Source of the DNA: Zoroaster sp. YZ-2022
Lineage: Eukaryota > Echinodermata > Asteroidea > Forcipulatida > Zoroasteridae
Assembly (NCBI GenBank): GCA_029582265.1
Contig: CM055823.1
Coordinates: 6,448,001 to 6,512,000 of the forward strand
Length of the DNA stretch: 64,000 bases
Direction: 5' to 3'
Positions 3,368 to 56,200 of this stretch are shown piece after piece. Under the pieces are notes generated by a model. It worked only from the letters and a program-made list of their open reading frames with translations, was not told the DNA's origin and did not search any database. Position 1 is the stretch's first letter. Each line of letters opens with the position of its first letter. A program made the position numbers and the translations under genes.

Positions 3368-3687
3368 TTAAGCCTAACCACCCCAAACCATTCAACAGCA
3401 GGGTTTGTTGGATTTTGATGGACTCAGTACTGTATAGCCCAGACAGGGATACTTTACATGGGGTCAGGTGTCTCAGTTCCAGCCAAGTCCAACAGTTGGG
3501 TGGTAGTGTTACTGCATGGTGTTGTATTTTGATGGACTCAGTACTGTATAGCCCAGACAGGGATACTTTACATGGGGCCCGGTGTCTCAGTTCCAGCCAA
3601 GTCCAACAGTTGGGTGGTAGTGTTACTCATGGTGTTTGATTTTGGCGGATTGAGGAATGTTCTCAGCCAAAATAACTAGGGAGTTAA
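3368..3687 (+). mobile_element. TTAA element with two internal 114-bp units
   Basis: TTAAGCCTAACCACCCCAAA starts it and TAACTAGGGAGTTAA ends it. Inside are two copies of a unit beginning TTTTGATGGACTCAGTACTG and ending GGTGGTAGTGTTACT. The sister copy at 4154-4585 has three. Confidence 0.8.
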
Positions 3688-3729: not shown

Positions 3730-3811
3730 CCATTGGTTTTAATGTAGAAACAGTGAAATACGGCAATATTAAATTCCAAGTATGGGACCTTGGTGGACAG
3801 ACGAGTATCAG
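3730..3811 (+). CDS. ARL1: ARL1 internal exon (switch I to G3)
   Basis: A pyrimidine-rich acceptor ending TTTACAG precedes CC-ATT-GGT-TTT, and the donor is AG|GTAAAA. The exon starts with two bases of the Thr codon and ends after two bases of an Arg codon. It encodes [19 protein letters not shown] and then the G3 motif LGGQTSI. Confidence 0.93.
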
Positions 3812-6800
3812 GTAAAAGCGTGTGACTTAGCCCTAACCCTCCAGGGTATTTTGGCTAGAAACCCTGCCAGACGCAACAGAGTGCATCGTTTATCAAAGTG
3901 ACTTGGCTGCCAAGTGCAACAAGATCCATCTGTTAACAAATCTCAAGGCCGAACTGCCTCAGAGTCTGTGGTCACCAAACGCAGCAGAATACAACTCTGG
4001 CATTGTTTAATGGGACCAGCTCTCAATAGAAACAGGCTTGGCTGCTTATGCACTGGTGTTGACAGCTGAATCCATCAAAGTGCATCAGACTTTTCCAGCT
4101 GATGCACTTTGCTGCGTCTGGCAGGGTTAGGGTTAGTGTAGGGATTCGTAGTGTTAACCATAACTACCCCAAACCATGTTGTATTTTGATGGACTCAGTA
4201 CTGTATAGCCCAGACAGGGATACTTTACATTGGGCCGGGTGTCCCAATTCCAGCCAAGTCCAACAGTTGGGTGGTAGTGTTACTGCATGGTGTTGGATTT
4301 TGATGGACTCAGTACTGTATAGCCCAGACAGGGATACTTTACATTGGGCCGGGTGTCCCAATTCCAGCCAAGTCCAACAGTTGGGTGGTAGTGTTACTGC
4401 ATGGTGTTGGATTTTGATGGACTCAGTACTGTATAGCCCAGACAGGGATACTTTACATGGGGCAGGGTGACCCAGTTCCAGCTGCATGTAAGTCCAGCAG
4501 TTGGGTGGTAGTTTTTGTGCATGGTGTTGGAATTTGGCAGATTCAGGAAGGTTCTTAGCCAAAACAGCTAGGGGGTTAGGGTCAAAGGAAGTGTACACTT
4601 TGTACCATTGGTAAAATGTCTATAAACGCAACCATACTTTTAGAAGTCTCTTACCTACATGAAGTAGGTACTTGCCAAATTTTCATTTGTATGTTGTTTA
4701 CTATTTATTAACCCTCCTACTTCTGGTACCTTTTTCATACAAGTTGATCCACCATTTGAAACCATTCGCTTTTGTGGTTTTGAATGGTGAAATAACTGTA
4801 CAGTATTGATTTCCCCAAATGGTTTTGAATGGTAGGTCAGCTAATACAAAGCCTTGTTTGGATCTTTCCAAATGGTAGTACAGCTAATACAAAACCTTGT
4901 TTGGATACTTCTAAGTGGTGAATCAATGGACCCTCTATGCATTTGAATGGATTTGAATGGTAGTAAAGCTTGCTACCAACACTGTTCAAATGGTATCACC
5001 ATGTGTGTACAAAACCAATGGGCATTTTGATAAGTGGAAATTTTGAATGGTTTCAAATGGTCAAACAGTAGGAGGGTTAATGTCTTCTTAACCTGTTCGC
5101 GTCGGGAATAAAAAAGTTTTTCTGGGCCCCTGTGCGGGTTTATTTTTCCCACACACACCGTGAATGGAAGCTTCCACAGCGGGTGGCCACGTCTTCCGTA
5201 CATGTCACTGTACACGGGTGGCTCAACCGAGCATGCATACCAATATTCCGGAGTTTCCTTTGGCGTGTTTAGACGCTCTCCGGTCCACGGTGCAAAATAA
5301 AAATTGCGTGTATACACGGCCTCCGATGCGAACTGGTTAACCATAACCTTCCCAAATCCTCCAAAAGCCTCTTTGCTAAAGTGAAGGATTTTACATGGTG
5401 AAGGAGGTTACAATGCTACATCCTCTTTGCTAAAGTGAAGGATTTTGAAGGATTGAGGTTACATGCTACATGCTCTTTGCTAAAGTGAAGGATTTTGAAG
5501 GATTGAGGTTACATGCTACATGCTCTTTGCTAAAGTGAAGGATTTTGAAGGATTGAGGTTACATGCTACATCCTCTTTGCTAAAGTGAAGGATTTTGAAG
5601 TTTTGAGGTTACATGCTACGTGCTCTTTGCTAAAGTGAAGGATTTTGGAGGATTGAGGTTATTAGGCATACTTGCCTTTCCATGGTACATGTACACTCAC
5701 TGGCCAAAAGTATTGCAACATGCTCAAAATAGCACTTTACAAGTAACAGGTGAGATGATCATTTAATCCGATTTCATCGATCGTGTATTACATAATTTCC
5801 GAGCAAGAACAGTAAAAAAGAACATTGACTTCAAAACACAGGCACTTTCAAGAAGTCTTAAGTAGTGTAAATAAAATAAAATAAATTATTGTGACACAGT
5901 TCTCCAAACTGAACTTTGGGGATGTTGCAATACTTATGGCCAGTGAGTGTACATCCATGTTTGTTGTAGTGATTGCAAGGTCAGTGCTTGGGTCAGTGGA
6001 CACTGTTTATTGCTCCATGCACGCAGGGAGGGTCCCTGGCCATGTACATGTATCACAGATTAGAAACACATGTGTGCATACATGTCATGTGCTTGCTTTA
6101 CTACTGAAGGATTTTAGAGGATTCAGGTTATGTGTAAGCAAATGGGCCTACGGAGTTCGGAAGGATTCAGGTTATGTGTAAGCAAATGGGCCTTGGGAGT
6201 TAGGAAGGATTCAGGTTATGTGTAAGCAAATGGGCCTAGGGAGTTAGGGTTAATAAACGATGACAGCATTATAGGTTGATGAAATTCTTGCGTTGGGTGA
6301 TGAACAATTGATTTAATTTTGCCCTACATCTACGTGTGTATAGCACTGCATACTCAGTGCTTTCCGAGTGTCTGTGAAAAAACTTCACTGGCGACTCGGG
6401 CGGGATTCGAATCCACAAATGACAGCATTATTAATTTGTCTTTATTTTTATTTCACAGACCTTACTGGAGATGTTACTACTCAAATACAGACGCCATCAT
6501 TTATGTTGTAGATAGCACTGATAAAGAACGAATGGGCATCTCAAAATCAGAACTTGTTGCCATGTTAGAAGTAAGTAACTCCATTCAACCATTGTACTAA
6601 GGCCAAAGTATGACGCCATGTTAGAAGTAAGTAACTCCATTCAACCATTGTACTAAGGCCAAAGTATGACGCCATGTTAGAAGTAAGTAACTCCATTCAA
6701 CCATTGTACTAAGGCCAAAGTATGACGCCATGTTAGAAGTAAGTAACTCCATTCAACCATTGTACTAAGGCCAAAGTATGACGCCATGTTACAAGTAAGT

Positions 6801-9800
6801 AACTCCATTCAACCATTGTACTAAGGCCAAAGTATGACGCCATGTTAGAAGTAAGTAACTCCATTCAACCATTGTACTAAGGCCAAAGTATGACGCCATG
6901 TTACAAGTAAGTAACTCCATTCAACCATTGTACTAAGGCCAAAGTATGACGCCATGTTACAAGTAAGTAACTCCATTCAACCATTGTACTAAGGCCAAAG
7001 TATGACGGCATGTTAGAAGTAAGTAACTCCATTCAACCATTGTACTAAGGCCAAAGTATCATGCCATGTTAGAAGTAACTCCATTCAACCATTGTACTAA
7101 GGCCAAAGTATGATGCCATGTTAGAAGTAAGTAACTCCATTCAACCATTGTACTAAGGCCAAAGTATGATGCCATGTTAGAAGTAACTCCATTCAACCAT
7201 TGTACTAAGGCCAAAGTATGACGCCATGTTAGAAGTAACTCCATTCAACCATTGTACTAAGGCCAAAGTATGACGCCATGTTAGAAGTAAGTAACTCCAT
7301 TCAACCATTGTACTAAGGCCAAAGTATGACGCCATGTTAGAAGTAAGTAACTCCATTCAACCATTGTACTAAGGCCAAAGTATGATGCCATGTTAGAAGT
7401 AAGTAACTCCATTCAACCATTGTACTAAGGCCAAAGTATGACGCCATGTTAGAAGTGGCAACTCCATTCAACCATTGTACTAAGGCCAAAGTATGACGCC
7501 ATGTTAGAAGTAACTCCATTCAACCATTGTACTAAGGCCAAAGTATGACGCCATGTTAGAAGTAAGTAACTCCATTCAACCATTGTGCTAAGGCCAAAGT
7601 ATGACGCCATGTTACAAGTAAGTAACTCCATTCAACCATTGTGCTAAGGCCAAAGTATGACGCCATGTTACAAGTAAGTAACTCCATTCAACCATTGTGC
7701 TAAGGCCAAAGTATGACGCCATGTTACAAGTAAGTAACTCCATTCAACCATTGTGCTAAGGCCAAAGTATGACGCCATGTTAGAAGTAAGTAACTCCATT
7801 CAACCATTGTACTAAGGCCAAAGTATGACGCCATGTTACAAGTAAGTAACTCCATTCAACCATTGTACTAAGGCCAAAGTATGACGCCATGTTACAAGTA
7901 AGTAACTCCATTCAACCATTGTACTAAGGCCAAAGTATGACGCCATGTTACAAGTAAGTAACTCCATTCAACCATTGTACTAAGGCCAAAGTATCATGCC
8001 ATGTTACAAGTAAGTAACTCCATTCAACCATTGTACTAAGGCCAAAGTATGACGCCATGTTACAAGTAAGTAACTCCATTCAACCATTGTACTAAGGCCA
8101 AAGTATCATGCCATGTTAGAAGTAACTCCATTCAACCATTGTACTAAGGCCAAAGTATGACGCCATGTTACAAGTAAGTAACTCCATTCAACCATTGTAC
8201 TAAGGCCAAAGTATGACGCCATGTTACAAGTAAGTAACTCCATTCAACCATTGTGCTAAGGCCAAAGTATGATGCTATGTTACAAGTAAGTAACTCCATT
8301 CAACCATTGTACTAAGGCCAAAGTATGACGCCATGTTAGAAGTAAGTAACTCCATTCAACCATTGTACTAAGGCCAAAGTATCATGCCATGTTAGAAGTA
8401 ACTCCATTCAACCATTGTACTAAGGCCAAAGTATGACGCCATGTTACAAGTAAGTAACTCCATTCAACCATTGTACTAAGGCCAAAGTATGACGCCATGT
8501 TACAAGTAAGTAACTCCATTCAACCATTGTACTAAGGCCAAAGTATCATGCCATGTTAGAAGTAACTCCATTCAACCATTGTGCTAAGGCCAAAGTATGA
8601 CGCCATGTTACAAGTAAGTAACTCCATTCAACCATTGTACTAAGGCCAAAGTATGACGCCATGTTACAAGTAAGTAACTCCATTCAACCATTGTACTAAG
8701 GCCAAAGTATGACGCCATGTTACAAGTAAGTAACTCCATTCAACCATTGTACTAAGGCCAAAAAATAAATCTCCGGTTTCTGGTCATAGGTCAGCTTCAA
8801 AATCTGTGATGCATTTTTTATTTATTTATTTATTTTTTTGTCATCCAGTGAAATACGTGATACGGTTATTGGAACCAGACCAAATTTTCCATACACAAAC
8901 TGTGATAGGTATATAGAGAGGCATCACAAATCTGGCAAACGTTCATATCCCTATGTGAAAAAGTCATTTAAAACACAGAATTCCAATCGATTTTTGCTGC
9001 AATTGGACATCATAGTGGAAAAAAATAAATAAATAAAAATGCCGACTGTAAATCCTCCAAAATTAAACATCCAGGAGGTTCAGGGGGCTTTGTCCTCTAG
9101 ACCAAAGGGAGACCCAGGCCCGCTACCCATTTTTCAGGATTTTTTACTTTTGTCCAGTGACACCCCTGAAAACCATGGTTCTCTTGATTATTTTAACCCT
9201 TCTACAATCAGTGCAATTTTTGAAACAACCCATTCAGGCCACTCCAAGCCATTAGCTGTTGCCAGTGGCCTCCTATGGTTTACCCTTCTGTGCACTGCCA
9301 CACCACTGAGATTGCAGGGTAAAGTGGTCTCCCATTGATGTAGTGTAGGCCATACTAATATGTTCAAACATTTACAGTGTCCTTGGGTGGCTGGCACACA
9401 GTTGATTTTGTAAGATTACTTGGAAAGGACAGCAGTCTCTTGTACATGTATGTACTGAAGGTTGCTCAAGAGCAGAATTTTGTGGATCGGAGTGGCCTCC
9501 ATGTGTAGGAGGGTTATAGCATTCGTTTTCCTTCCCTCAAGTGAAATAGCAGTGTTCCGATGAAAACAAAAATCAGAAAATTGCTGTTAAAATAGCCCAA
9601 AAAAATATGGACGATTATTAATTGTGACCTCTGACCCCAACAGGAAGAAGAACTAAAGAATGCCATGTTACTGGTCATGGCTAACAAACAGGACATGGAG
9701 AATGCCCTCACACAATTACAAGTAGCCAATGAACTCGGCCTCTCAGCACTCAGGCACCGCAAGTACCAAATCTTCAAGACGTCCGCGATCAAAGGGGAGG

Positions 9801-10326
9801 GACTCGAGGAGGCGATGCAATGGTAAGGAGGAATCCCCAGCTAATACGCTTTTCAAATATTACCCTTGAGGGCGCTCTACACGCCTGCAAAGCTCGTATA
9901 CGGTTTCGGGTTATTTAAGATGAAATAGCGAAAATGCATTCAGATGGAAATTCCTTCTTGGTTTCAGGGATGCCAGTTTTCCGGCTATTGCCAGGAATTC
10001 CGGCTTTTTCATATTTTTCCCAAAGAAATCCGGCGCTCTGTCTTTCGTCCGGCCGGAAGAAAATCGCCTTTACAGAGCATGCTCAGTTAGTCTTGGTTAT
10101 CAAGACGTTCTTGCCTTTTCTTTTTTTTATGCCATTGCATAATACCTGAAACTTTTGTGTTTGTCATTTGGAGTACAATGCCAGGATGGCACAGATAATT
10201 AAAGACTTCTGGTAATATTGAAGCGCATTTAGTACGGTACGAGACAAAAACGTTACTGAATAAAAAAAATTCAATTTTATTTTATTTTTAAACAGGCTTG
10301 TGAGTGAACTCAAAACATCGCAGTAA
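3730..10326 (+). CDS. ARL1: ADP-ribosylation factor-like protein 1 (ARL1), 3' four coding exons
   Basis: Small GTPase of the Arf family that sits on the trans-Golgi and recruits GRIP-domain golgins (family knowledge). Four exons, 3730-3811, 6459-6570, 9644-9822 and 10296-10326, join in phase and encode about 134 residues, roughly positions 48 to 181 of a usual 181-residue ARL1. Visible motifs are switch I (TIGFNVET), the G3 motif (WDLGGQTS), the G4 motif (NKQD) and the G5-like TSA. The Phe, Trp and Tyr of the effector patch (GFN, VWD, RCYY) are present. All introns are GT-AG. The first exons, with the myristoylated N-terminus and P-loop, are not in this window; I looked for them in 1-3730 without success. 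The middle intron (6571-9643) begins inside a large tandem array that copies the exon end and splice donor. Identity as ARL1 rather than another ARL rests on the [12 protein letters not shown] and [15 protein letters not shown] stretches. Confidence 0.95.
3820..4135. mobile_element. Inverted-repeat remnant with GCCAGACGCA ends
   Basis: AACCCTGCCAGACGCAACAG near 3866 and its inverse TGCTGCGTCTGGCAGGGTT near 4110 bound about 260 bases in the ARL1 intron. The outer text carries CCCTAACCCT and AGGGTTAGGGTTA tips like the other TTAA elements. Confidence 0.55.
4154..4585 (+). mobile_element. TTAA element with three internal 114-bp units
   Basis: Same family as 3368-3687: it starts TTAACCATAACTACCCCAAA and ends AGCTAGGGGGTTAGGG. 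Three units of 114 bp are nearly identical, which shows recent expansion inside the element. Confidence 0.82.
4708..5080 (-). mobile_element. TTAA element, CCATTTGAA family (copy 2)
   Basis: Complete copy in the opposite orientation to 2718-3062, bounded by TTAACCCTCCTACTTCTGG and CAGTAGGAGGGTTAA. Its right TTAA is followed within 10 bases by the next TTAA element. Confidence 0.86.
5089..5340 (-). mobile_element. TTAA element, CCAGTTCGC family (copy 1)
   Basis: Begins TTAACCTGTTCGCGTCGGG and ends CGATGCGAACTGGTTAA. The interior has GAAGCTTCCA and GTGTATACACGG inverted motifs. Copies are at 13380-13632 and, partly, 54530-55160. Confidence 0.78.
5337..6254 (-). mobile_element. TTAA element with short minisatellites, sister of 50268-52177
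   Basis: Starts at the TTAA shared with the previous element and ends CCTAGGGAGTTAGGGTTAA. The left part has six copies of a 55-60-bp unit (CTCTTTGCTAAAGTGAAGGA). The right end has three copies of a 44-bp unit (GTTATGTGTAAGCAAATGGG). A Tc1-like MITE (5694-5949) is inserted. Confidence 0.85.
5694..5949. mobile_element. Tc1/mariner-like MITE with TA duplication
   Basis: 256 bp with 28-bp inverted ends (CACTCACTGGCCAAAAGTAT at the left; one mismatch at the right) flanked by TA. The sister element at 52018-52040 shows the uninterrupted site CATGTACATCC. Confidence 0.9.
6273..6418 (-). mobile_element. SINE fragment with 13-bp target duplication beside an ARL1 exon
   Basis: ATGACAGCATTAT occurs at 6260-6272 and again at 6419-6431, bounding text of the second SINE family (GATGAAATTCTTGCGT, ACTCGGGCGGGATTCGAA). 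The duplication lies only 28 bases from the acceptor of the exon at 6459. Confidence 0.82.
6459..6570 (+). CDS. ARL1: ARL1 internal exon ([10 protein letters not shown] to AMLE)
   Basis: The acceptor is TTTCACAG, and the exon completes the Arg codon and reads [20 protein letters not shown] and onward to SELVAMLE. The donor is GAA|GTAAGT. The last 12 coding bases (GCCATGTTAGAA) and the donor form the first unit of the tandem array that follows, so this is the authentic donor and the founder of the repeat. Confidence 0.94.
6559..8760 (+). repeat. Minisatellite of about 40 units carrying the ARL1 exon end and splice donor
   Basis: A 56-bp unit begins with GCCATGTTAGAA (the last four codons of the preceding exon) and GTAAGT (its donor), and ends with CTAAGGCCAAAGTATGAC. 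About 40 copies fill 2.2 kb. Variants are simple: GTTACAAG for GTTAGAAG, GTGCTAAG for GTACTAAG, CATGCC or GATGCC for GACGCC, and about eight 52-bp units that lost one GTAA and so have a weaker GTAACT donor. Variants recur in blocks, as expected from unequal exchange. Each unit read in the ARL1 frame meets TAA 14 codons after GCC, so use of a later donor would truncate the protein. Confidence 0.97.
8771..9010 (-). mobile_element. Dispersed MITE with GGTTTCTGGTCA end
   Basis: CCGGTTTCTGGTCATAGGTC, AACCAGACCAAATTTTCC and CAAACGTTCATATCCCTATG recur in reverse at 39313-39560 and 20836-21110 and in part at 30905-31010. The (ATTT) run inside is local. Confidence 0.7.
9048..9175. repeat. Dispersed repeat around ATCCAGGAGGTTCAGGGGGC
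   Basis: The core (GTCCTCTAGACCAAAGGGAG, then TACCCATTTTTCAGGATTTT) recurs at 12050-12160, three times in tandem at 58238-58440, and at 59565-59640. No ends are clear. Confidence 0.6.
9193..9518. mobile_element. TTAA-type element with CCCTTCTAC and GTAGGAGGG ends
   Basis: TTTTAACCCTTCTACAATC begins and GTGTAGGAGGGTTA ends this 325-bp unit. A diverged copy in reverse lies at 55970-56152 (CTCCCATTGATG against its inverse, GTGCACTGCCACACC). Confidence 0.65.
9644..9822 (+). CDS. ARL1: ARL1 internal exon (G4 and G5)
   Basis: The acceptor is CCCCAACAG and the donor is TG|GTAAGG. The exon reads [20 protein letters not shown], continues through [17 protein letters not shown] and ends in [15 protein letters not shown] plus two bases of a Trp codon. 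The NKQD guanine-specificity motif is intact. Confidence 0.94.
10296..10326 (+). CDS. ARL1: ARL1 terminal coding exon
   Basis: This short terminal exon follows acceptor TTTAAACAG. It completes the Trp codon and encodes LVSELKTSQ followed by TAA, matching the usual C-terminal helix of ARL1 (W-L-V-x-x-L-K-x-x-Q). It is too short to be found by ORF length alone; the phase fit and the C-terminal match support it. Confidence 0.9.
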
Positions 10327-16629: not shown

Positions 16630-17385
16630 CTGGATAGAGGGTCAGGTATGTACATTGAAGCCATTAGCTGGCCATATTGCTAGTCTATAAAACCACACAT
16701 TGCACTCGAATGCTAACATCAAGAATGAACAAAGAGGCAAATATATTGAAGTCACTGAGCTGCCATGTTACTAGTCTTTGAAAACATACAATCGGACGCT
16801 TGGACAAAGAGTTAGGCACATATGTGACTGACTCTGGCAAAACCCTAAACTTGGACCCAATTTTCAAAAGTGACCTTCCAAATTTATTGTGAAAATTAAC
16901 AATGTTCCCAACGTTTCAATATTTTTCTTTTTCCATCAAAATCTAGAGAAAATGCTCTATATGGTGACATGAAAACTGGTCCCTGGGGTCAGTTTTTGAC
17001 CTTTTCATGGCTGTTATGCATTATGGTAAATGCCAAGAAGTTTTGGGTTTTGCCAGAGCAGGTCACATAATTATATTGAAGCCACTGAGCTGCCATGTTA
17101 CTAGTCTCTGAAAACAGTCGAATGCTTACATGAAGAATGAAGAAAGAGTTAGGCACATATATTGAAGCCACTGAGCTGCCATGTTACTAGTCTCTGAAAA
17201 CAGTCGAATGCTAACATGAAGAATGAAGAAAGAGTTAGGCACATATATTGAAGCCACTGAGCTGCCATGTTACTAGTCTCTGAAAACAGTCAAATGCTAA
17301 CATGAAGAATGAAGAAAGAGTTAGGCACATATATTGAAGTCACTGTGCTGCCATGTTACTAGTCTCTGAAATCATACATTGCCAT
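16630..17385 (+). repeat. 86-bp tandem repeat, interrupted
   Basis: Units start ATTGAAGCCACTGAGCTGCC and include GTTACTAGTCTCTGAAAAC and AAGAATGAAGAAAGAGTTAG. Spacing is 86 bases at 17075, 17161, 17247 and 17333. Older units lie at 16655 and 16746, separated by unrelated text, and a single diverged unit is at 16240. Confidence 0.85.
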
Positions 17386-34224: not shown

Positions 34225-34421
34225 ATAAAGGGAGTGTCCCCATGGCATCAAGAGAAATAAACTGCACATAATATGTGAGATATCAGTTAAATGTGGCATA
34301 GAAACCCCTTCTCACGAGAGAGCATTCTAACCACCTGTCGGACGTCTGCACCAGCGAGAATCCATTTTTGGGTGTGCTATTTGTGGACAAATACATACGT
34401 CTGATAGATTAACGTCTAAGC
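34225..34421 (+). pseudogene. Degenerate finger remnants just upstream of the intact array
   Basis: Short pieces such as FLGCAICGQ and the codons for SSHERAF lie out of frame with the downstream ORF and contain stops. They suggest that the intact array was once longer at its N-terminal end. Confidence 0.5.
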
Positions 34422-35723
34422 ATGATTCAGATAGCCCACATCAATGAGAAACAACACTCGTGTGGAAAATCCTTCTCACGACACAAGAATCTAAAACGGC
34501 GTCAGAGCGTCCACACAAAAGAGAAACTATTTCTTTGTGAGATTTGTGGCAAAACATTCGTTGATAACAGTAGTTTAAAAGGCCATGCTAGAATCCACAC
34601 CGAAAAGGGAAAATTTTTCTGTAACATCTGTGATGGAAAATCTTTCACAAGAGAATCCACACTGAAACGGCATCATCAAGCAATCCACGCCATCGAGAAG
34701 CCATTTGTTTGTGACATCTGCGGCAAATCCAGCTCCAGTGGAAGCAGTCTAAGAAATCACAAGCTAGTCCACACCAAAGAGAAACCATTCGTCTGTGATT
34801 TGTGTGGGAACGCATTCTCACGAATTGACACTCTAAAAGAGCACCAGAACATCCACACAAAAGAGAAAACATTCGTTTGTAACACTTGCGGCAAGTTTTT
34901 CGCGAATGTACGCACGCTGGGAGGCCATCAGAGGATCCATACCAAAGAGAAACCATATGTTTGTGACATTTGTGGCAGATCCTTCCTTGATGCAAGCAGT
35001 CGTAGAAGGCATAGGACGGTTCACACCTCTGAAAAACCATTCAAATGTGATACGTGTGGAAAATGTTTCGCAAGAAGTGCCTATCTTAAAGGGCATCAAC
35101 GAATCACCCATTCCAATGAGAAACGTTTTGAGTGTGGCACTTGTGGAAAACGCTTCTCTGATAGCGGCACTCTAAGAATTCATAAGGTAGTCCACACCAA
35201 AGAGAAACCATTCCTTTGTGATATTTGTGACAAAGCTTTCTCAAGAAAAAGCGATCTTAGACGGCATCAGAAGTTCCATTCAAAAGTAAAACCATTCTGT
35301 TGTGAATTTTGCGATAAATCTTTCTCACTTGGAAGCAACTTAAAGTCACACCTCAGGGTCCACACCAATGAGAAACCATTTGTTTGTGACATTTGTGGCA
35401 GAGCATTCTCACATACATGCACTTTAAAAATTCATCACCGATCTGTCCACACCAACGAGAAACCATTTTGTTGTGGCGTTTGTAGTAAACCGTTCTCTGA
35501 TAGAAGCGGTCTCAGAGGCCATGAGGTCATCCACTCCGATAAGAGACCATTCGTTTGTGATATTTGTGGCAAAGCATTCTCACGAGGATACAGCCTTAAA
35601 GAGCATCGAATAGTCCACACAAATGAAAAACCATTCGTTTGTGACATTTGTGGTAAAGCCTTCGCACGTAGAAGCAATTTACGGAAACATTTAAAGGTTC
35701 ATTACAAGACTAAAAGTGTATAG
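34422..35723 (+). CDS. C2H2 zinc-finger protein with 14 tandem fingers
   Basis: An intact 433-codon ORF encodes an almost pure finger array: one ruined finger (residues 12-31, first Cys and first His lost) and 14 complete C2H2 fingers to the C-terminus. Helix contact residues (-1,2,3,6) read DSSG, RSTR, SSSN, RDTE, NRTG, DSSR, RAYG, DGTI, RSDR, LSNS, HCTI, DSGG, RYSE and RSNK. Linkers are mostly HTKEKPF or HTNEKPF instead of the canonical TGEKP. Finger 2 has one inserted residue between the second Cys and the Phe, and finger 3 lacks the usual Phe. A stop lies in frame at 34410-34412, so the ATG at 34422 is the first possible start unless an upstream exon is spliced in. No KRAB, BTB or other effector domain is visible. 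It probably binds DNA in the nucleus; the target is unknown. Confidence 0.85.
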   Translation: MIQIAHINEKQHSCGKSFSRHKNLKRRQSVHTKEKLFLCEICGKTFVDNSSLKGHARIHTEKGKFFCNICDGKSFTRESTLKRHHQAIHAIEKPFVCDICGKSSSSGSSLRNHKLVHTKEKPFVCDLCGNAFSRIDTLKEHQNIHTKEKTFVCNTCGKFFANVRTLGGHQRIHTKEKPYVCDICGRSFLDASSRRRHRTVHTSEKPFKCDTCGKCFARSAYLKGHQRITHSNEKRFECGTCGKRFSDSGTLRIHKVVHTKEKPFLCDICDKAFSRKSDLRRHQKFHSKVKPFCCEFCDKSFSLGSNLKSHLRVHTNEKPFVCDICGRAFSHTCTLKIHHRSVHTNEKPFCCGVCSKPFSDRSGLRGHEVIHSDKRPFVCDICGKAFSRGYSLKEHRIVHTNEKPFVCDICGKAFARRSNLRKHLKVHYKTKSV

Positions 35724-36464: not shown

Positions 36465-36760
36465 AGTACTGTAAAATTGGCAATTGATTTAATTTTGCCC
36501 TACACCGACGTGGTATAGCACTGTATGCTCAGTGCTTTCCGAGTGTCTGTGAAAAAACTACACAGGCGACTCGGGTGGGATTCGAACCCACGACTTCCTG
36601 CTTACTAGTGCAGACGTCTTAACCTCTCGACCACCGAGCTTGCCCGATGACGATTGGCCAGCTAGAATCCTATATAGCAGCGGGTTCCGCGATATATATA
36701 GATTGGTGAAATTCTTGCGTCGGGAGATAAACAATTGATTTAATTTTGCCCTACAAAATT
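36465..36760 (-). mobile_element. tRNA-derived SINE, family II
   Basis: On the minus strand: GGTCGAGAGGTTAAGACGTC (A-box-like region), then GTGGGTTCGAATCCCACC (B box) and a body with GACACTCGGAAAGCACTGAG and ATTTTGCC. Fragments at 6273, 41265 and 62640. It is a repeat and not a functional tRNA gene. Confidence 0.83.
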
Positions 36761-44200: not shown

Positions 44201-47200
44201 AAATGACAGTAAAAACCAGTCATAAATGCCCCTGTGTGCACATTTGGGTCAACAGTCAAAACAGGCAGTTGACTAATTTTGACCCCTTTAGTTACTAAAA
44301 GTTCAGCTACATTGTAAAGTAGGAGAGCTAATACTTTTTCACGCTTTCCTCATGACCATGAGCTTTGTGTGACACAAACACACTCATTATTTGGTGTCAC
44401 AACCAAGTACAAACGCTTAAAAAAAGTCTTCTATTGTAACAAAAACAAATGCTCATTAATTAAATTTTGAAAGCAAACAATATGTAAGCATTTATTAACC
44501 CTCCTACTGTTTAACCATTTGAAACCATTCAAAATTTCCACTTACCAAAATGGCCATTGGCTTTGTATACACATGGTGATACCATTTGAAAAGTGTTGGT
44601 AGCAAGCTTTACCACCATTCAAATCCATTCAAATGGTTTTTGAATGGTGGATACACTACACCTTGGTGTGTTTCCATAGCCGAATGGTTTCAAATGGTGA
44701 TTGTATTACACAGTGGCTTATAAATCATTCAAGTCCCAGAAAACGCAGTAAGTTTGGAAATGCCCCAGCCAAGTACTATCCCAATTCTACTTCAACATGA
44801 CATACGTACATAATGGCGACGTGCACACATGCATTTAGCAATGCTCCCATATTTCTCCTATTTGTTGCTGTTTTCGTTCTGCAAGGCAACACATATTGTA
44901 TATCACAAGAAAGAGTTCAGTTTGCTGATTCCACTGATGTGCTCTGTCCAGGATTTCCTGATGTGACAGACGAGCTTTTGAGTGATTTGTGTTTCAATTT
45001 TCTGCATCTTCTTGGAGTTTCTGAAGCCAAATGTCTGCACACACATGAGCTATTCTACACACCCGAGCGACTCCTTTGTGTCACTCTCCAGTGTCCTGTG
45101 AGAGTAGTGACCACCACCACCACCACCAGTCTGTGTGGCCATGGACGGTTGAAAGGGTGCTATTCACTATCCATGATTCATCATGATTCATCATACAACA
45201 CAAAGCACCATGCAGCTTTTCCAATATGGTGGAGCATCTTCAATCCAGCTAGTCTTCCCTGTATTTGTATCCTGCCAACAGTCAAACACTGTATACTTCA
45301 CCATGATCGTCGTAAATTTGGTAATAATCACCACAACTACTATTCCAATTCTACTGCTACCTTCCAAATAGAACTTGGTGGAGATGTTCATCCCAATCCA
45401 GGTCCAGATGATAGGAGTAACCTGCTCCGATCAGCAGTTGCGGCAGAAATTTCTTCATCAGCTAATTTGTCAAGACCAGCACTTTCTTCAAGCATTAACT
45501 GTGTTCTCTTCAACGCCAGAAGCATCGTAAATAAACTTGTCTGTTTTCAATCTGAACTTTTGGTGAACAGCTATGACATAGCATTTATTACAGAATCTTG
45601 GCTGGATAGTACAGTTCATGATGGTGAACTGATTCCAAACTCGAATTATTGTATTTTTAGAAAGGATCGGAACCGCCATGGTGGTGGAGTGTTCATTGCA
45701 GTGTCTAATCACTTGAAACCTGTGCATATTCATAAATTTGATCATCCTGATATTGAATTAATTTGGGTTGAAATTTCGTGTAACCATGGTATCTTTCTTC
45801 TAGGTTGTTTATACAGGCCTCCAAATCTTGGTTCAAAATTTTTTGGAGATTATCAAAGTGTGTTAGAATCAATTTTACCTTTTTCACATCATTACTCTGG
45901 TATTGCTATTTTAGGTGACTTTAATATTGATCCTGTTTCAAATTCTCTACTTTTGTCTGTGCAACGCCTGAATGATGTTTCTGACACTCTTAATCTCCAG
46001 CAGATGGTGAATTTTATCACACATCCTAATTCCTCTTCTGAAACAAATGGTTCTGTAATAGATTTGCTTTTACCAATAGACCCGACATGTTTACAAATAT
46101 CCGTGTTCAACCCTGTTTAGGATCAAGTGATCATTATGGTGTATCTTGCAATATTTTGACCAGCTGTGATGTTAAATCTATCACTCGCTTGTTTTACCAG
46201 TACAACAAAGCTGATTTAACCACTCTTTGCGAAACACTGTGTAGAGTTCCGTGGGGTACATGTTTTCACCTGAATCTGATATTAATGAAGTGTGGGATAA
46301 ATTTAAAGATCTTTTATTTGCAACTGTTAGTGATATTGTTCCTGTGGCTAAACAAAAGGTAAAAGAGACATCCTTGGATTTCAGCGGAAATTATCACTCT
46401 TAGTAAGAAAAAACACCGTGCTTTTAGAGCAGCTAAACGTAATCCTGCAAACATTAATTTATGGACCAAATATAAAACACTACGTAATAAGGTAAAGTAT
46501 ATCACTACACAATCATATTTTTCTTATGTTCAACAATTGGCTCAGAATTCGCATCTAATCCAAAACAGTTTTGGTCATTTGTTAGTAGTCAACGCAAGAA
46601 AAACACTATCTCCAATTTTCGGACAGCCTCTGGCACTATACTAAGTGACCATCTTGACATTGCCAATAATTTCAACTCTGTTTTTCAAAGTAATTTCACT
46701 GTTGACACAACTGATTTTAATAGTACTTTATGTAGCCACTCTTCCTCAGAAATTAGATTATGTGATATTACTACTAGTGCTAACGGTTAAGAAATTATTA
46801 AAGGATATTAATATGTATAAATCTGCCGGCCCTGACAATGTATCTCCAATGCTGCTTAACTTAGCCAGTAATAGCTTAGCTGAACCATTATCTAAGCTAT
46901 TTAACCTTTCACTTTCATCTGGCACTGTGCCTACTGAGTGGAAACGTGCTAATGTTGTACCTTTGCTGAAATCTGTGACCCCATGACATCTCAAATTACA
47001 GACCGATTTCGCTTTGTTCAGCGGTTGGCAAAATTCTTGAGAAGATTGTTAGCAGACACATTGTCAATCATATGTACAGAGGCGGCATTATATCCCATGT
47101 TGAACATGGGTTCTTTCCAAACGCTCATGTGTAACTCAATTGTCAACATTATACCATCATTGGTCAGAAATACTAGATAAAACTAAACCACCTCGAATTG

Positions 47201-50200
47201 ATGTCATTTTTTAGATTGGTCGAAGCATTTGATCGTGTGAGTCATCAGATACTGTTAAACAAGTTACATAAGTATGGCATTTGTGGATCTATTCTTGACT
47301 GGTTTAATTCTTATTTAAACAACAGATCTCAAAGGGTACTTTTTCAGGGGTCTCAATCTAACTGGGCAGCAGTTCACTCTGGTGTACCTCAAGGGTCAGT
47401 TCTTGCACCTTTGTTATTTAACATCTTTGCTTTTGACCTTCCATTTTGTGTTCAATCCAGTCTGAGACAATATGCTGACGATACTGTTCTGTTTAGGGCT
47501 ATTAGACACGATACTGATTCCGTTGTACTCCAGAGTGACCTGCATAATATAATAACATGGTGTAATCTAAATCGTATGTCTCTAAATATAAACAAATGTA
47601 AACTTATGACAATAACACGTTCTAAATCTCCTCCTCGCCCCCTTTATACAATTGGTTCTGACACTCTAGAAATTGTCAATAATTATAAATATCTTGGTGT
47701 TACTATTACTAGTGACCTTAGCTGGAAACAACATATAAACAATATTGTGTCAAAACAACTAAATTGTTAGGTTTCATTAGAAGAATTGTAAAGTGTCGGG
47801 ATCCAGGTACCATTGTTAAACTTTACTGTTCACTTTGTAGACCCATTTTAGAGTATGCTTCCACTGTTTGGTGTCCTTGCCTCGTAACCCAACAAGACAC
47901 ATTAGAGAAAGTTCAGAGAACTCACCCGCTCTTGCCTTGGACTCCCAAGAAGAGCTAGTTTAAATTCTGTAAATGAAATTGACTATTTCACTAGGTGCGC
48001 TCAATTAGGATTGCCATTGTTAATTAATAGACTTCACTTTCTTTCAATATCATTTGTTGTTAAATGTTTGTATAATAGTTTTGATGTTAACATAAGTAAT
48101 TACATTCAAATTAATACTAGACATACTGACACTGTCAAATTTCATCATCAGAGTTCAAGGACAAATGCTTTTCATCACTCACTTTTATTAGGTTTCCTAG
48201 AATATGGGATAGTTTACCTGTAGATGTCAAGGAACAGATTATTGTTGGTTTTAAACCGTTCATAAATGCTTTAAGAAAGCATCTTCTAACTCCTGGAGTA
48301 AGTATTGTTTTGCCAAAATAGCGTCAAATTTATATGTTTAACACTGTCTTACAATTTTTTATATATACAGATTTATCTTCAATGTTTAATTTGGTTCTGC
48401 TGGCAGTACTTTAAGGAGATCCACTTGATTGTGATTCAGTTCGCATTTGGTAATCCTACAGGGTGTACTGTCAACTGGTTTTAATTTGTATTATTTTGTC
48501 TTGTGTAATCATTGTATCATTTGATCATATTTGTTTTTTTAATGTCTTTTTTGTACCCTGTGAAATAATAAATGAATGAATGAAAATGAAAATGGTTTTT
48601 GAATGGTGGATACACTACACCTTGGTGTGTTTCACAAAACGAATGATTTCAAATGAATGATTTCAAATGGTGCATCAACTTGTCTGAAAAAGGCACCAGA
48701 AAAAGGCACCAGCTGGACATCAGTGGCAAAGTAGCTGTACTGGTCAAAATCAGACTGTTTTGACAGTTGACCCAATATGTGCACACAGGGGCATTGTTGA
48801 CTGGTTTTCACTGTCATTTTGAACATCCTCAACAATACAAGATAATGCTTTTACCAGTGTCAAAAACGGTAGACTCATTTTGACCTGTAAAATGTACTTA
48901 ATACACGTAAGGTTTGATAGTGTTTGACTTTTAAGCGCACTAGATATACCTTGGGAAGTATATCAACATTTTGACTGATTTTGACCCATGCAGTCCAGTG
49001 GGTTTGTCAAAATTACAAAGACTGCATGAATCCTAGTGATTTTTATTTTATATTTACACATTTCAGTGTTCACATTTCAGTGTTCACATTTCACTTTGAT
49101 TTTGCCCATGGTCCGTTGGCCACATGTCAGTTAAAATGGCGGCAGACTACTCAAAATCTCTCTCCTAGTAGTCCAGTGGGTTTGTCAAAATTACAAAGAC
49201 TGCATGAATCCTAGTGATTTTTATTTTATATTTACACATTTTATTCCACTGGGCCATGATTTCATCATTTTCAAATATGCTACAGTGCAACAGGCCATAA
49301 ACACTCCATGCTACCCATTCCCATAACTCCTGATGCATGCAAGCTACATAGCAAGGATTTTCACAGTTTGTCCAATAGGAAATAGAAAATACATATTAAA
49401 TTTCTGTTTTGTAGATTTTATGCCTTGTCTTGTCTACTTTGATTCAGTGTAATGACTGTTTATTTTGTATTTGAAATAAAGATATCATGGGCCTTCAACA
49501 TCAGTCATCAAATTTGCATATTTTGCCTTAAAATCAGTACAAACAAGTACAAATTCTGAATTTGATTCTGTACAAAATGCACGTCATATATTTAGCCCCA
49601 TTTCTAGAAAAGAAATGGGGTAAAAACTGTTAAGATGAGGAAATCATAGGCTTTTCATCATATTTTGATATTTAAACTTTGAATGATATGCAAATTAGAT
49701 GCAAATGAGATATTTCTTAAATATATTGGGGAAAGGTGGGCCTAACCTATGTGCATATACTGTGAAAGTTCCAAGTTCACCGGAATAACCCATTTTGAAT
49801 TACAGCCTAAAAACCAAAAATGTGCATTTGGAGTGTTTATGGCCTGTTGCACTGTACCATCATGAAATTCAAAGAAATATTCGCTCATAGTCTTTGTCCA
49901 AAAATACTGACAATTGTGGACCATCTTTCAGAACTTTATAAAAAAAGTACTTAAAAACATGCAGACCAGTGAAAATGCATGCGGAATAGCTAACAGTCAA
50001 ACTTTATGGACTGGCCGGCTAGTGAAAAAAAAAAGAAGACAACCCCTGGTCTATATTCGCACTATTATTTTTGTTATTTTCAGGATGTGTCAAGTTTCCT
50101 TCATGAGTGGAAGTCTTTGGACATTCTTATCAGTGTCATTGAACAAACAACTGCACCAAGATTAACTGTAAGTATTTACTTTGCCCACTTTAAAGCCTTT

Positions 50201-53200
50201 GAGAAGCCTGGCCAAGAAATTTTAGTGGATTGGGGTGGCCTCTATGTGAAGCACTTAATCCTCCTTCTTAACCCTAACTCCCTCGACCCATTTGCTTACA
50301 CATAACCTGAATCCTTCCTAACTCCCTAGGCCCATTTGCTTACACATAACCTGAATCCTTCCTAACTCCCTAGGCCTATTTGCTTACACATAACCTGAAT
50401 CCTCCCTAACTCCCTAGGCCCATTTGCTTACACATAACCTGAATCCTTCCTAACTCCCTAGGCCCATTTGCTTACACATAACCTGAATCCTTCCTAACTC
50501 CCTAGGCCCATTTGCTTACACATAACCTGAATCCTTCCTAACTCCCTAGGCCCATTTGCTTACACATAACCTGAATCCTTCCTAACTCCCTAGGCCCATT
50601 TGCTTACACATAACCTGAATCCTCCCTAACTCCCTAGGCCCATTTGCTTACACATAACCTGAATCCTTCCTAACTCCCTAGGCCCATTTGCTTACACATA
50701 ACCTGAATCCTTCCTAACTCCCTAGGCCCATTTGCTTACACATAACCTGAATCCTTCCTAACTCCCTAGGCCCATTTGCTTACACATAACCTGAATCCTT
50801 CCTAACTCCCTAGGCCCATTTGCTTACACATAACCTGAATCCTTCCTAACTCCCTAGGCCCATTTGCTTACACATAACCTGAATCCTTCCTAATTAACTC
50901 CCTAGGCCTATTTGCTTACACATAACCTGAATCCTCCCTAACTCCCTAGGCCCATTTGCTTACACATAACCTGAATCCTTCCTAACTCCCTAGGCCCATT
51001 TGCTTACACATAACCTGAATCCTTCCTAACTCCCTAGGCCCATTTGCTTACACATAACCTGAATCCTTCCTAACTCCCTAGGCCCATTTGCTTACACATA
51101 ACCTGAATCCTTCCTAACTCCCTAGGCCCATTTGCTTACACATAACCTGAATCCTTCCTAACTCCCTAGGCCCATTTGCTTACACATAACCTGAATCCTC
51201 CCTAACTCCCTAGGCCCATTTGCTTACACATAACCTGAATCCTTCCTAACTCCCTAGGCCCATTTGCTTACACATAACCTGAATCCTTCCTAACTCCCTA
51301 GGCCCATTTGCTTACACATAACCTGAATCCTTCCTAACTCCCTAGGCCCATTTGCTTACACATAACCTGAATCCTTCCTAACTCCCTAGGCCCATTTGCT
51401 TACACATAACCTGAGTCCTTCCTAACTCCCTAGGCCCATTTGCTTACACATAACCTGAATCCTTCCTAACTCCCTAGGCCCATTTGCTTACACATAACCT
51501 GAATCCTTCCTAACTCCCTAGGCCCATTTGCTTACACATAACCTGAATCCTTCCTAACTCCCTAGGCCCATTTGCTTACACATAACCTGAATCCTTCCTA
51601 ACTCCCTAGGCCCATTTGCTTACACATAACCTGAATCCTTCCTAACTCCCTAGGCCCATTTGCTTACACATAACCTGAATCCTTCCTAACTCCCTAGGCC
51701 CATTTGCTTACACATAACTTGAATCCTTCCTAACTCCCTAGGCCCATTTGCTTACACATAACCTGAATCCTTCCTAATTCCCTAGGCCCATTTGCTTACA
51801 CATAACCTGAATCCTTCCTAACTCCCTAGGCCCATATGCTTACACATAACCTGAATCCTCCAAAATCCTTCAGTAGTAAAGCAAGCACATGACATGTATG
51901 CACACATGTTTCTAATCTGTGATACATGTACATGACCAGGGACCCTATCTGCATGCATGGAACAATAAACAGTGTCCACTGACCCAAAGCACTGACCTTG
52001 CAATCAATACAACAAACATGGATGTACATGTACCATGGAAAGGCAAGTATGCCTAATAACGTCAATCCTCCAAAATCCTTCACTTTAGCAAAGAGCATGT
52101 AGCATGTAACCTCAATCCTTCGAAATCCTTCACTTCAGCAAAGAGGATTTTGGAGGATTTGGAAAGGTTAGGATTAATCCTCCTTCTTAATCATCCTCCT
52201 TAATCATCCTCCTTAATCCTCTTTCTTAATCATCCTCCTTAATCCTCTTTCTTAATCCTCATATCAACCCCTTGATCATCTTGTATGTTTATTTACACAG
52301 GAGATCTGTATGGGAATCCTCGCTAATATGGCCTGCAGTAAGGAGATCACAGCTCATATCAGCAGCAACGAAAAAATCAGGTAATTTACCTTGACCCTGT
52401 TGAACCACAAGAGGGGGTACTACTGTGATTTACCATTCTCCTGAGGACGATCAGAGCACACTGATCGAAACGTGGAGTTGTAACCTCCAGTTCTTTTCAG
52501 AACTAATTACTACTCAATTGAGAATTTCACATGGTGTCACCACAGTTAGTCTTACTTACTGTGACTTTGTTGAACCACAAGAGGGTAAGCTTGGGCGATA
52601 ACACGATAATATCGAATATCACGATACCTTTTTTTTTATTCGATTACGATATCGAGAACCTTTTAAAATTATCAAGATATCGGCAAATCGCGATTAAAAA
52701 AACAAAACAATGCGAGTCAATTCAAAAATTCCACAGAACAACAAAATTAGAATAGTCTTTTCAGCTTTTGGAAGTGAGAAACAAAAACGAACTACTTCAG
52801 AAGTACATACACGCTCTGCAAATGAATTTGCGATTTATTGTGACGCTTGTAGAGGGGTATATACCTGTGGTTATCGGCTCTCAAGCAGTCCTGCATGAAT
52901 GAAAAAATCATCGCGATATTATCGAAAATCGCAATATATGTTTGCCGATATATCGTGGATGAAAAAAATCGATATCGCCCAAGCTTACAAGAGGGGGTAC
53001 TACTTTGACTTTATTGAACCATAAGACGGGGTACTACCGCTGTGTTAGTATTGAGGGGCGCCATGGCTGAGTGGTTTAGCACAACGGTCCAGTGCATCAG
53101 ACTTGTGTTCTGACAGACAAGTCATCAGAATGTGGGTTTGAATCCTGGCTGCGGCCATGGTGCTTGTGTCCTTGAGGAAGGAGACGATGGGCAGGCCTAC

Positions 53201-56200
53201 TGGCAATTAGCCTTGACCAAGGCGCATCGGAACGGTTTGGCTGCATAATTTTGCCCCATTTAGCTATCCAAACTCCAGCGCACATTCTCATGTATAGTAA
53301 TAATAATAATAATAATAATAATGTGTGGACTTATATAGCGCACGTATCCACCAACTAAGTGGTGCTCAAGGCGCATTATATCATTACCCCTGCTCATAAG
53401 GCTCATAAGGCTCATAAATCATTCCTGAAACCATCTCAGCTCCCTGGGGAGTATACAGCTCAATTGCTGCCATTACAGCGCATATAGGGCTAATCAACCA
53501 ACTCTGCCCTCACAGGTACCCATTTAACCCCTGGGTGGAGAGAAGCAATTATGGTTAAGTGTCTTGCTCAAGGACACAAGTGTCACGGCCGGGATTCGAA
53601 CCCACATTCTGCTGCTAACACCAGAACTTGAGTCCGGTAAGGTAGACCGCTCGGCCATGACACTCAATGTATGGAGTACACTGTACATTACTGTACATTA
53701 CTGTACATGTACTGTACATGTACTGTACATGTACTGTACATCACTGTACATACAGTGACCATTCGTCGTCGCGCTTTGATGCTTCTGCACATGCCAACAT
53801 TTAATTTAAAGCTCATTAACCCCAACTCCCTAAGCATTGTTACTGAACAATAAAAATCCTTCAAAATCCTCCAACTGCCTTTGTTGTCTAGGGAGTTAGG
53901 GTTAATGCTAATATACCAAATTAAAAAACCAAAGACGTATTCTCATTGGTTACTGGTTGGCCCTGCAACTGTATGCTTGCTGTCTGCGATACATGATTGT
54001 ACTGTACATGTACAACTAGCCCAGGTTGGCCTTTGACCTTCGTGTACTCCGTTTCACACGTATACAGAGACGGGGTCCATATTTGGGCTCATGTACGACG
54101 TGTGTTATGCATTGTGCTGTTAAAAGCATTGTCTTGTATTGTTCAGGGTGGTCAAAATGACGGTAAAAACCAGTCAAAAATGCCCCTGTGTGCACATTTG
54201 CGTCAACAGTCAAAACAGGCAGTTGACTGATTTTGACCTCTATAACTACTTGCCACGAAAGTGCATCTATAGTAGGAGGGTTAACCCTAACCATCCCAAA
54301 TCCATCAAAATCCTTCAAGGGGCACTTTTTTGAAAAATTCAGCACTTTCAGAAACTGGTACTTGCACCTCTCCAAATGGGGCAGAATTACTTCCTGGCAA
54401 GAAGTACAGGCCGTAAGTGCTGAATATGAAAGATCAACGAAAATGCATGGTGCATTTTGAAGATAAGGGCATGTTTCCAAAAGTGCACTGATGGATTTTG
54501 GAGGGTTCAGGAAGATTCCTGTTCAGGGATAACCAGTTCGCTTCGGAGGTCGTGTATACACACAATTTTTTTTCGTACAGCGGATCGGAGAGCGTCTAAA
54601 CACGCATTCCGATTTTTGTGTGTGTTACCGGGAGACTTGTCAACACGCCACACGTGGCGTGCTTTCGTGGCGGCTGACTTGTATACACGCAATCGTTTCT
54701 CGGAGTCCATGGGGTCACGGTTCGGTGGCCCTGGACAAAAGGCACTGCAAACACTGAACGAGTTCACTCTTTTTGTTGATTTTTGCATAATCCCTTTATC
54801 CAAGACCTGTTCCTTTGACGTACCAGCCAAGAATTTGTAAAGACGGATTTATATCCATTGTTTACGGGGCCTTTGATCTCTCTCCGGGTATGCCGTCTTT
54901 TCGACCGGGCGCTGGTCGCTAATAGGCCGTTGCATCGGAGCTTGCCAACGGTCTAATTGTGCTGAACAAACACAACCGTAATTAAAAAACTAGCCATTTA
55001 ATTCTCGAAATGTCAATGAGTAAAGGTGTTTATTTGGGTGTCAGAACTTCATTGACAAACAAAATTATTAATGGCTAGAAATTTTTTCTGATTTTTCACT
55101 GAAAATAAACCCGCACGGGGGACCGGAAAAAAATAAATATTCCCGACGTCAACTGGTTAATAGGACTACATGACTCATTGCTTGAAACACCGAGTTGGTA
55201 TTCAGTAAGGTTTATATGATTTTATTTTGTGTGGTGAAACTCTCAGATTATTGACGTTAGAATTACTCGGAAGCAGTGACACTCAAACACTCATCCAGAC
55301 AACCAGGCTGCTACTGACGTGTCTGTCGTCCAAGCAAGATGACGTCGTAGCCTCGTGGCTGCAACAGATAAAAGGAGAGTTCTGCCAGAGGATTGCATTC
55401 ATCTTACAAAGCTCAACAAATCGTAAGTCAATCACGAAACAGATTTCCCAAACAATTATTATTGTACATTTCTGGTAATGAAACCAAAGATTCCTCAAAA
55501 GCACACTTAAGCACTGTAGCTCAGAAGCCTGAGGAAACCTATAAACAATGCTTGTGTCCTTCAGCAAGACACTTTACCATAATTGCTTTTCTCCACCCAG
55601 GGGTAAATGGGTACCTGTGAGGGCAGAGTTGATTGTTGTGTTTGATTAGCCCTATATGCGCTGTAATGGCAGCAATTGAGCTGTATACTCCCCAGGGAGC
55701 TGAGATGGTTTCAGGAATGATTTATGAGCCTTATGAGCAGGGGTAATAATATAATGCGCCTTGGGCACCAGTTTGGTGGATACGTGAGCTATATAAGTCC
55801 ACATTAAAAAAAAGAAAAAAAGGACACTTGCTATGTGAACCAGAAACACCAGGGTGAACCCCTACTCTTCTACGATAAGTGTTCTGGGTTCTTTTACGTC
55901 CCATCCAAAGGACGGAGCAATTATATGGTTAGGTGTATTGTTAAGTGTTAAGTACACAAGCGCTGAGGGGTGATTTGTGAACATATCAGTATGGTCTGCA
56001 ATGTATCAATGGGAGACCACCTTACCCAGCAATGTTAAGTGGTGTGACAGTGCACAGAAGGGTAACCATATGAGGCCATTGGTAACAACTGCAGTAGCTT
56101 GGAGTGGCCTCAGACGATTGTTTAAAATATGGTTTTGATCGAAGGAGGGTTTAATGTACATGAATATCTTGATTCATAGAGAATAAAATTATTCCTAGGA

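Follow-up and report, generated by a model that had tools for sequence, protein, structure and literature searches.

How is one splice donor chosen when the end of a coding exon, together with its donor, stands about forty times in tandem? The question arises from an ARL1 gene in the 64,000-nt stretch of sea star DNA analysed here (the window), where the first-pass annotation had read the end of an ARL1 exon and its splice donor as amplified some 40-fold. This reading was correct: 40 units begin at the end of exon 4, and both the exon border and the AMLE|GTAAGT assignment were right. We consider it likely that the array is an exon-intron-border minisatellite carried mainly as a tolerated passenger, with the first donor used and perhaps a small cost to ARL1.

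The host gene was identified with ARL1 as the tblastn query. Within the window, exon 4 matched ARL1 at 86.8% identity (E 1.3e-19), and its peptide found ARL1 proteins as its best four matches in the PDB. When the four ARL1 exons were joined, the reading frame was open up to the stop codon. The joined 133 residues gave 3366 protein matches, and the figures that follow come from the best 120 of these 3366. The best among the matches listed was a JGI protein (90%), the closest named relative among them was ARL1 of Acanthaster planci (89%), and further ARL1 matches in the same list came from Lytechinus pictus (81%) and Antedon mediterranea (80%). For exons 1 and 2, tblastn gave no match within the window; they presumably sit past its left end. 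The end of exon 4 (GCC ATG TTA GAA) and the start of exon 5 (GAA GAA GAA CTA; the exon opens with GAAGAAGAACTA) join to give AMLE|EEEL. In an alignment of 20 ARL1 proteins, made up of the window's own protein and 19 chosen by hand among the 120 matches listed, the M, L and E of AMLE were invariant in 20 of 20 and the A was not. Positions are collected in Table 1.

Table 1. ARL1 exons, intron 4 and parts of the tandem array, in window coordinates.
Feature	Positions	Strand	Remarks
ARL1 exon 3	3730..3811	+	Ends ...TSI plus two bases of R; tblastn with ARL1
ARL1 exon 4	6459..6570	+	112 nt; ends ...SELVAMLE; acceptor tttcacag, donor GAA|GTAAGT; tblastn with ARL1
56-bp tandem array, 40 units	6559..8762	+	32 GTAAGT donors, 8 weakened
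Repeat-initiating coding exon end GCCATGTTAGAA, AMLE	6559..6570	+	Flank match stops at 6558; MLE invariant
ARL1 intron 4	6571..9643	+	3073 nt; array makes up 2192 nt of the intron (71%)
Native first donor GTAAGT of exon 4, unit 1	6571..6576	+	
GTATGAC in unit 1, variants in other units	6608..6614	+	7 nt closing each full unit
ARL1 exon 5	9644..9822	+	EEEL...EAMQ plus two bases of W
ARL1 last coding exon	10296..10326	+	LVSELKTSQ; stop 10324-10326

Tandem Repeats Finder reports the array with a period of 56, 39.9 copies and 95% matches, and its limits replace the earlier 6553..8760 by 6559-8762. The unit is of minisatellite size and is arranged head-to-tail. Cut at each unit start, the array yields 31 units of 56 bp, seven of 52 bp and one of 55 bp before it ends in a truncated unit of 49 bp; among the 39 full units there are 14 distinct forms. 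A 27-nt unit core occurs 40 times in the window (up to three mismatches allowed, both strands), always within the array, and 0 times in 100 shuffles of the sequence. Assemblies often err in tandem arrays, and units 1-4 are identical, as might be seen if the true genome held only a few units and the rest were an artefact. We regard this as extremely unlikely, because the full units come in so many distinct forms, identical blocks recur over at most three units and the window contains no N; the copy number itself may be in error, but several real variant units would remain.

Where did the repeat start? The left edge of the array lies not mid-intron but inside exon 4, 12 nt short of the exon end, and the sequence to its left does not match the end of the unit. 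Unit 1 consists of the 12 coding nt that close exon 4 and of 44 nt of intron 4. Because the left edge falls inside the exon and the flank is unlike the unit end, the 12 coding nt appear to belong to the founder and not to be a later arrival. This agrees with the earlier proposal that a coding exon end founded the repeat. The repeated block runs from GCCATGTTAGAAGTAAGTAACTCC to GGCCAAA and is followed in each full unit by GTATGAC or a variant of it. Unit 40 lacks this heptamer, its GGCCAAA passing directly into AAATAAATC, and the right flank is also without it; the 7 nt are possibly filler laid down in the founding duplication.

We propose that a chance tandem duplication spanned the exon 4 border, copying the final 12 coding nt together with 37-44 nt from the start of intron 4, and that unequal exchange or slippage would then have expanded the block to 40 units. 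Adjacent units differ less than in shuffled order (1.31 versus 1.58 differences; 59 of 5000 shuffles as low). For the identical units at the start of the array, the chance for that class is 0.0008, a post hoc figure for a class chosen after looking. A mobile origin of the unit was rejected: within the window its 27-nt core is confined to the array, unlike a 44-bp unit that forms a dispersed minisatellite, with three copies in ARL1 intron 3 (6118-6248) and 36 in an array 44 kb away on the opposite strand (50273-51859). One and the same 114-bp tandem repeat flanks exon 3, at 3406-3644 in intron 2 and at 4177-4536 in intron 3. Because other minisatellites surround exon 3 and occupy intron 3, the region seems prone to tandem duplication. 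Intron 3 also holds a 40-nt inverted repeat (5689-5954; 93% complementary, 186 nt apart) that resembles a small DNA-transposon remnant, and a 58-nt block starting CAGGAGGTTCAGGGGGCTTTGTCC is found in intron 4 (9072-9129) and in about three tandem copies at 58246-58420.

To grade the donors, we used an approximate splice-site matrix and pairing to the U1 5' end. The 40 units carry 19 CAA|GTAAGT donors (matrix score 9.27, U1 pairing energy -7.2 kcal/mol), 13 GAA|GTAAGT (8.23, -7.2 kcal/mol), seven GAA|GTAACT, in which four bases are lost (4.16, -3.3 kcal/mol), and one GAA|GTGGCA (-0.15, -2.8 kcal/mol); the last two classes are the eight of 40 that had been described as about eight weakened donors. 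Inside the array 32 of 191 plus-strand GT sites match or exceed the score of the first donor, versus 30 of 3650 outside it. Elsewhere in ARL1, the donors of exons 3 and 5 score 7.18 and 9.24. The founder donor is good yet short of the best possible because position -1 is A instead of G.

What would follow from the use of a later donor? Any donor from 2 to 40 leads to an identical product end: nine added codons (VSNSIQPLY) and then a stop. Only the first donor gives a normal ARL1, as the first-pass annotation had stated; its stop after 14 codons seems to have been counted from GCC with the stop included. An mRNA that keeps splice junctions downstream of its stop codon is expected to decay. Because such junctions still lie downstream of the stop created by donors 2-40, mRNA from later donors is probably truncated and degraded. 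The CAA form, present in 19 of the 40 units, would place Gln at the invariant Glu position, and the first unit is probably kept at GAA (Glu) by purifying selection.

Is it unusual for a conserved exon border to found a minisatellite, as had been claimed? A minisatellite with a 12-bp unit is found in human IFI6 (6-16/G1P3). Described by Turri et al. 1995, as cited in PMC4526556, PMC2572611, PMC2915984 and PMC3618361, it also supplies multiple donors at an exon end, and two downstream repeat units are said to serve as donors, giving three mRNAs (PMC4526556). IFI6 is a different gene, and its downstream units are said to yield mRNAs, whereas the later ARL1 donors lead to a stop. The human CBS 31-bp VNTR is written c.1444_1467+7(16_21) (PMC2630376); by this notation each unit combines a coding exon's end with the first 7 intron nt, donor included, and it is repeated many times in tandem within a conserved metabolic gene. 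It is placed at exon 13-intron 13 and listed with reduced activity in PMC1395315. The CBS repeat is 31 bp long, has 16-21 copies and varies among people, whereas the ARL1 array has 40 copies of 56 bp and sits in another gene and another animal. Like these two, the ARL1 array has a minisatellite unit that contains the host's exon end and donor, and it starts at the exon border. Because CBS and IFI6 precede it, it is a new, extreme example of a known design: the design is not categorically new, but its presence as forty units of 56 bp in a gene so deeply conserved is an extreme new case. Such a founding border is less unusual than had been claimed. Among the papers listed, none deals with a minisatellite in ARL1, as judged by titles and the starts of abstracts; PMC3618361 names yeast ARL1 among minisatellite-stability genes, a separate matter.

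Which donor does the cell choose? The exon 4 acceptor is strong, the fraction of plus-strand AG sites in the window that score at least as high being 0.000 to three decimals by the approximate matrix, and the first donor lies 112 nt from it. By the same matrix, the exon 5 acceptor is weak (0.96; 9.7% of AG sites score as high). Because introns 3 (2647 nt) and 4 are long, exon definition should govern exon 4, and both introns far exceed the 365-nt introns used for exon definition in the minigenes of PMC9225289. As reported there, in five minigenes with 365-nt introns, each carrying two identical CAG/guaagu donors, splicing went exclusively to the upstream one, and natural near-equal donor pairs in long introns also favour the upstream donor. 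The same source gives about 60% of natural competing pairs as favouring the downstream donor when uncorrected for strength, the stronger donor as dominating in 86% of pairs, and larger exons as mainly skipped when both donors are very weak (PMC9225289). The choice of the first donor, raised earlier as a question, has a published answer in principle, namely that with long introns the upstream of identical strong donors was used (PMC9225289). By this comparison, the cell probably uses the first donor in most transcripts. Against this, the CAA donors slightly outscore the first GAA donor (9.27 versus 8.23, approximate matrix). Leakage to later donors may be considerable, because in IFI6 two downstream repeat units reportedly serve in splicing (PMC4526556).

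If leakage were substantial, the 39 extra donors might divert a copy-number-dependent share of transcripts to decayed mRNA, so that array length would set the ARL1 level and might itself be selected. Three points fit such a throttle: donors 2-40 all reach the same early stop, PMC1395315 lists lowered activity for the CBS 31-bp VNTR, and splicing at downstream repeat donors is ascribed to IFI6 (PMC4526556). However, identical-donor minigenes under exon definition used the upstream donor exclusively (PMC9225289), and we judge length-dependent control of this kind unlikely.

We favour a passive role for the array. Exon definition would couple the strong exon 4 acceptor to the nearest donor, that of unit 1, in most transcripts. 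With the first donor used, the whole rest of the array would be intronic, and presumably for this reason the cell tolerates it. Occasional use of a later donor would bring in the stop nine codons on, and the mRNA would be expected to be degraded. On this view the array would be for the most part a passenger that the cell tolerates, perhaps at a slight cost in ARL1 output.

Does RNA folding set the first donor apart? In 19 units a G-to-C change completes a 5-bp hairpin (GTTAC/GTAAC) that encloses the donor, with a predicted energy of -3.9 kcal/mol versus -1.2 kcal/mol without the change at 37 C. Predicted donor accessibility is 1.6- to 4.4-fold lower in the G-to-C units at 37 C, and their median is lower in 8 of 8 settings; the difference between GAA and CAA units has p values from 2.3e-6 to 2.1e-3, computed over units that share ancestry and are not independent. 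A special openness of the first donor was unsupported: its accessibility ranks from 1st to 21st of 40 over the eight settings, and unit 1 does not stand out among the GAA units. We also folded 12 background GTRAGT sites (9.7-30 kb), and most of them were no more open than the array donors. The hairpin is therefore unremarkable against this background, and the passenger reading does not rest on it, because unit 1 is not distinct and the background is as closed.

Unspliced donors could also act by binding. U1 suppresses intronic polyadenylation, and an array of donors might recruit U1 particles that strengthen the definition of exon 4 or block premature polyadenylation at AATAAA beyond the array. 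Within 2.2 kb, 32 sites can form seven contiguous base pairs with the U1 5' end, and AATAAA-type motifs occur at the right edge of the array (8764) and at 9024, 9028, 9032 and 9062. Yet introns 3 and 5 also hold AATAAA-type motifs and have no such array, and we give a U1-binding platform very little credence. A wider proposal makes the array a length-tunable ARL1 regulator, whose 39 spare donors jointly serve as decay decoys or as a U1 platform, with unit variants doing the tuning; this, too, we find improbable. Because the G-to-C hairpin reduces predicted donor accessibility, a regulatory array might be on its way to concealing its decoys, with the first unit remaining more open.

Could parts of the array be spliced in as exons? 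A weak AG lies 18 nt ahead of the next donor, and its use would insert 18-nt in-frame pieces (YDAMLE or variants); 39 of 39 unit junctions yield an open piece of this kind. However, (i) chance alone would probably leave an 18-nt stretch open; (ii) the intervening intron would measure 34-38 nt; and (iii) 59% of the window's plus-strand AG sites equal or exceed the AAAG acceptor in score by the approximate matrix. That matrix gives the array's highest-scoring AG -1.82 and AAAG -5.75; the four ARL1 acceptors of the window range from 0.96 to 9.76. We rejected micro-exons, and likewise new introns, on account of the weak acceptors and tiny introns, and attach practically no probability to such micro-exon splicing. 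Recursive splicing was also rejected, the array containing 0 AGGT, a count unaffected by where the units are cut. In intron gain by tandem genomic duplication (PMC4974935, PMC3443670), splice-site sequence is likewise copied by duplication, but a new intron arises there. None is expected in the ARL1 array because no good acceptor was copied: a usable acceptor and a donor do not occur together in the duplicated block.

Forty near-equal donors on one exon make a natural test of the nearest-donor rule in exon definition, far past two-donor constructs. The locus also indicates that, even in a deeply conserved gene, the end of a coding exon can give rise to a minisatellite and still survive. The array exposes that coding end to the risk of conversion by variant units, with Gln replacing Glu at an invariant site. 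Should the array differ in length between individuals, a ready allelic series would be at hand.

Several other elements were recorded in the window. An 86-bp array at 17072-17371 has a unit with GCCATGTTAC, a 10-nt match to the CAA-form ARL1 unit that is probably due to chance. The 9-mer GCCATGTTA was also taken as a chance match: exon 5 contains it at 9662, it recurs at 16762, and the 86-bp array holds four copies (17092-17350). On the minus strand, a tRNA-like sequence with an Rfam tRNA match and an unclear anticodon lies at 36567-36640, and ARAGORN calls a tRNA-Leu (caa) at 53580-53661 that is absent from the Rfam list. An open frame of 436 aa with C2H2 zinc fingers spans 34413-35723, and a LINE-like element at 44801-47770 contains endonuclease (PF03372) and reverse transcriptase (PF00078) reading frames.
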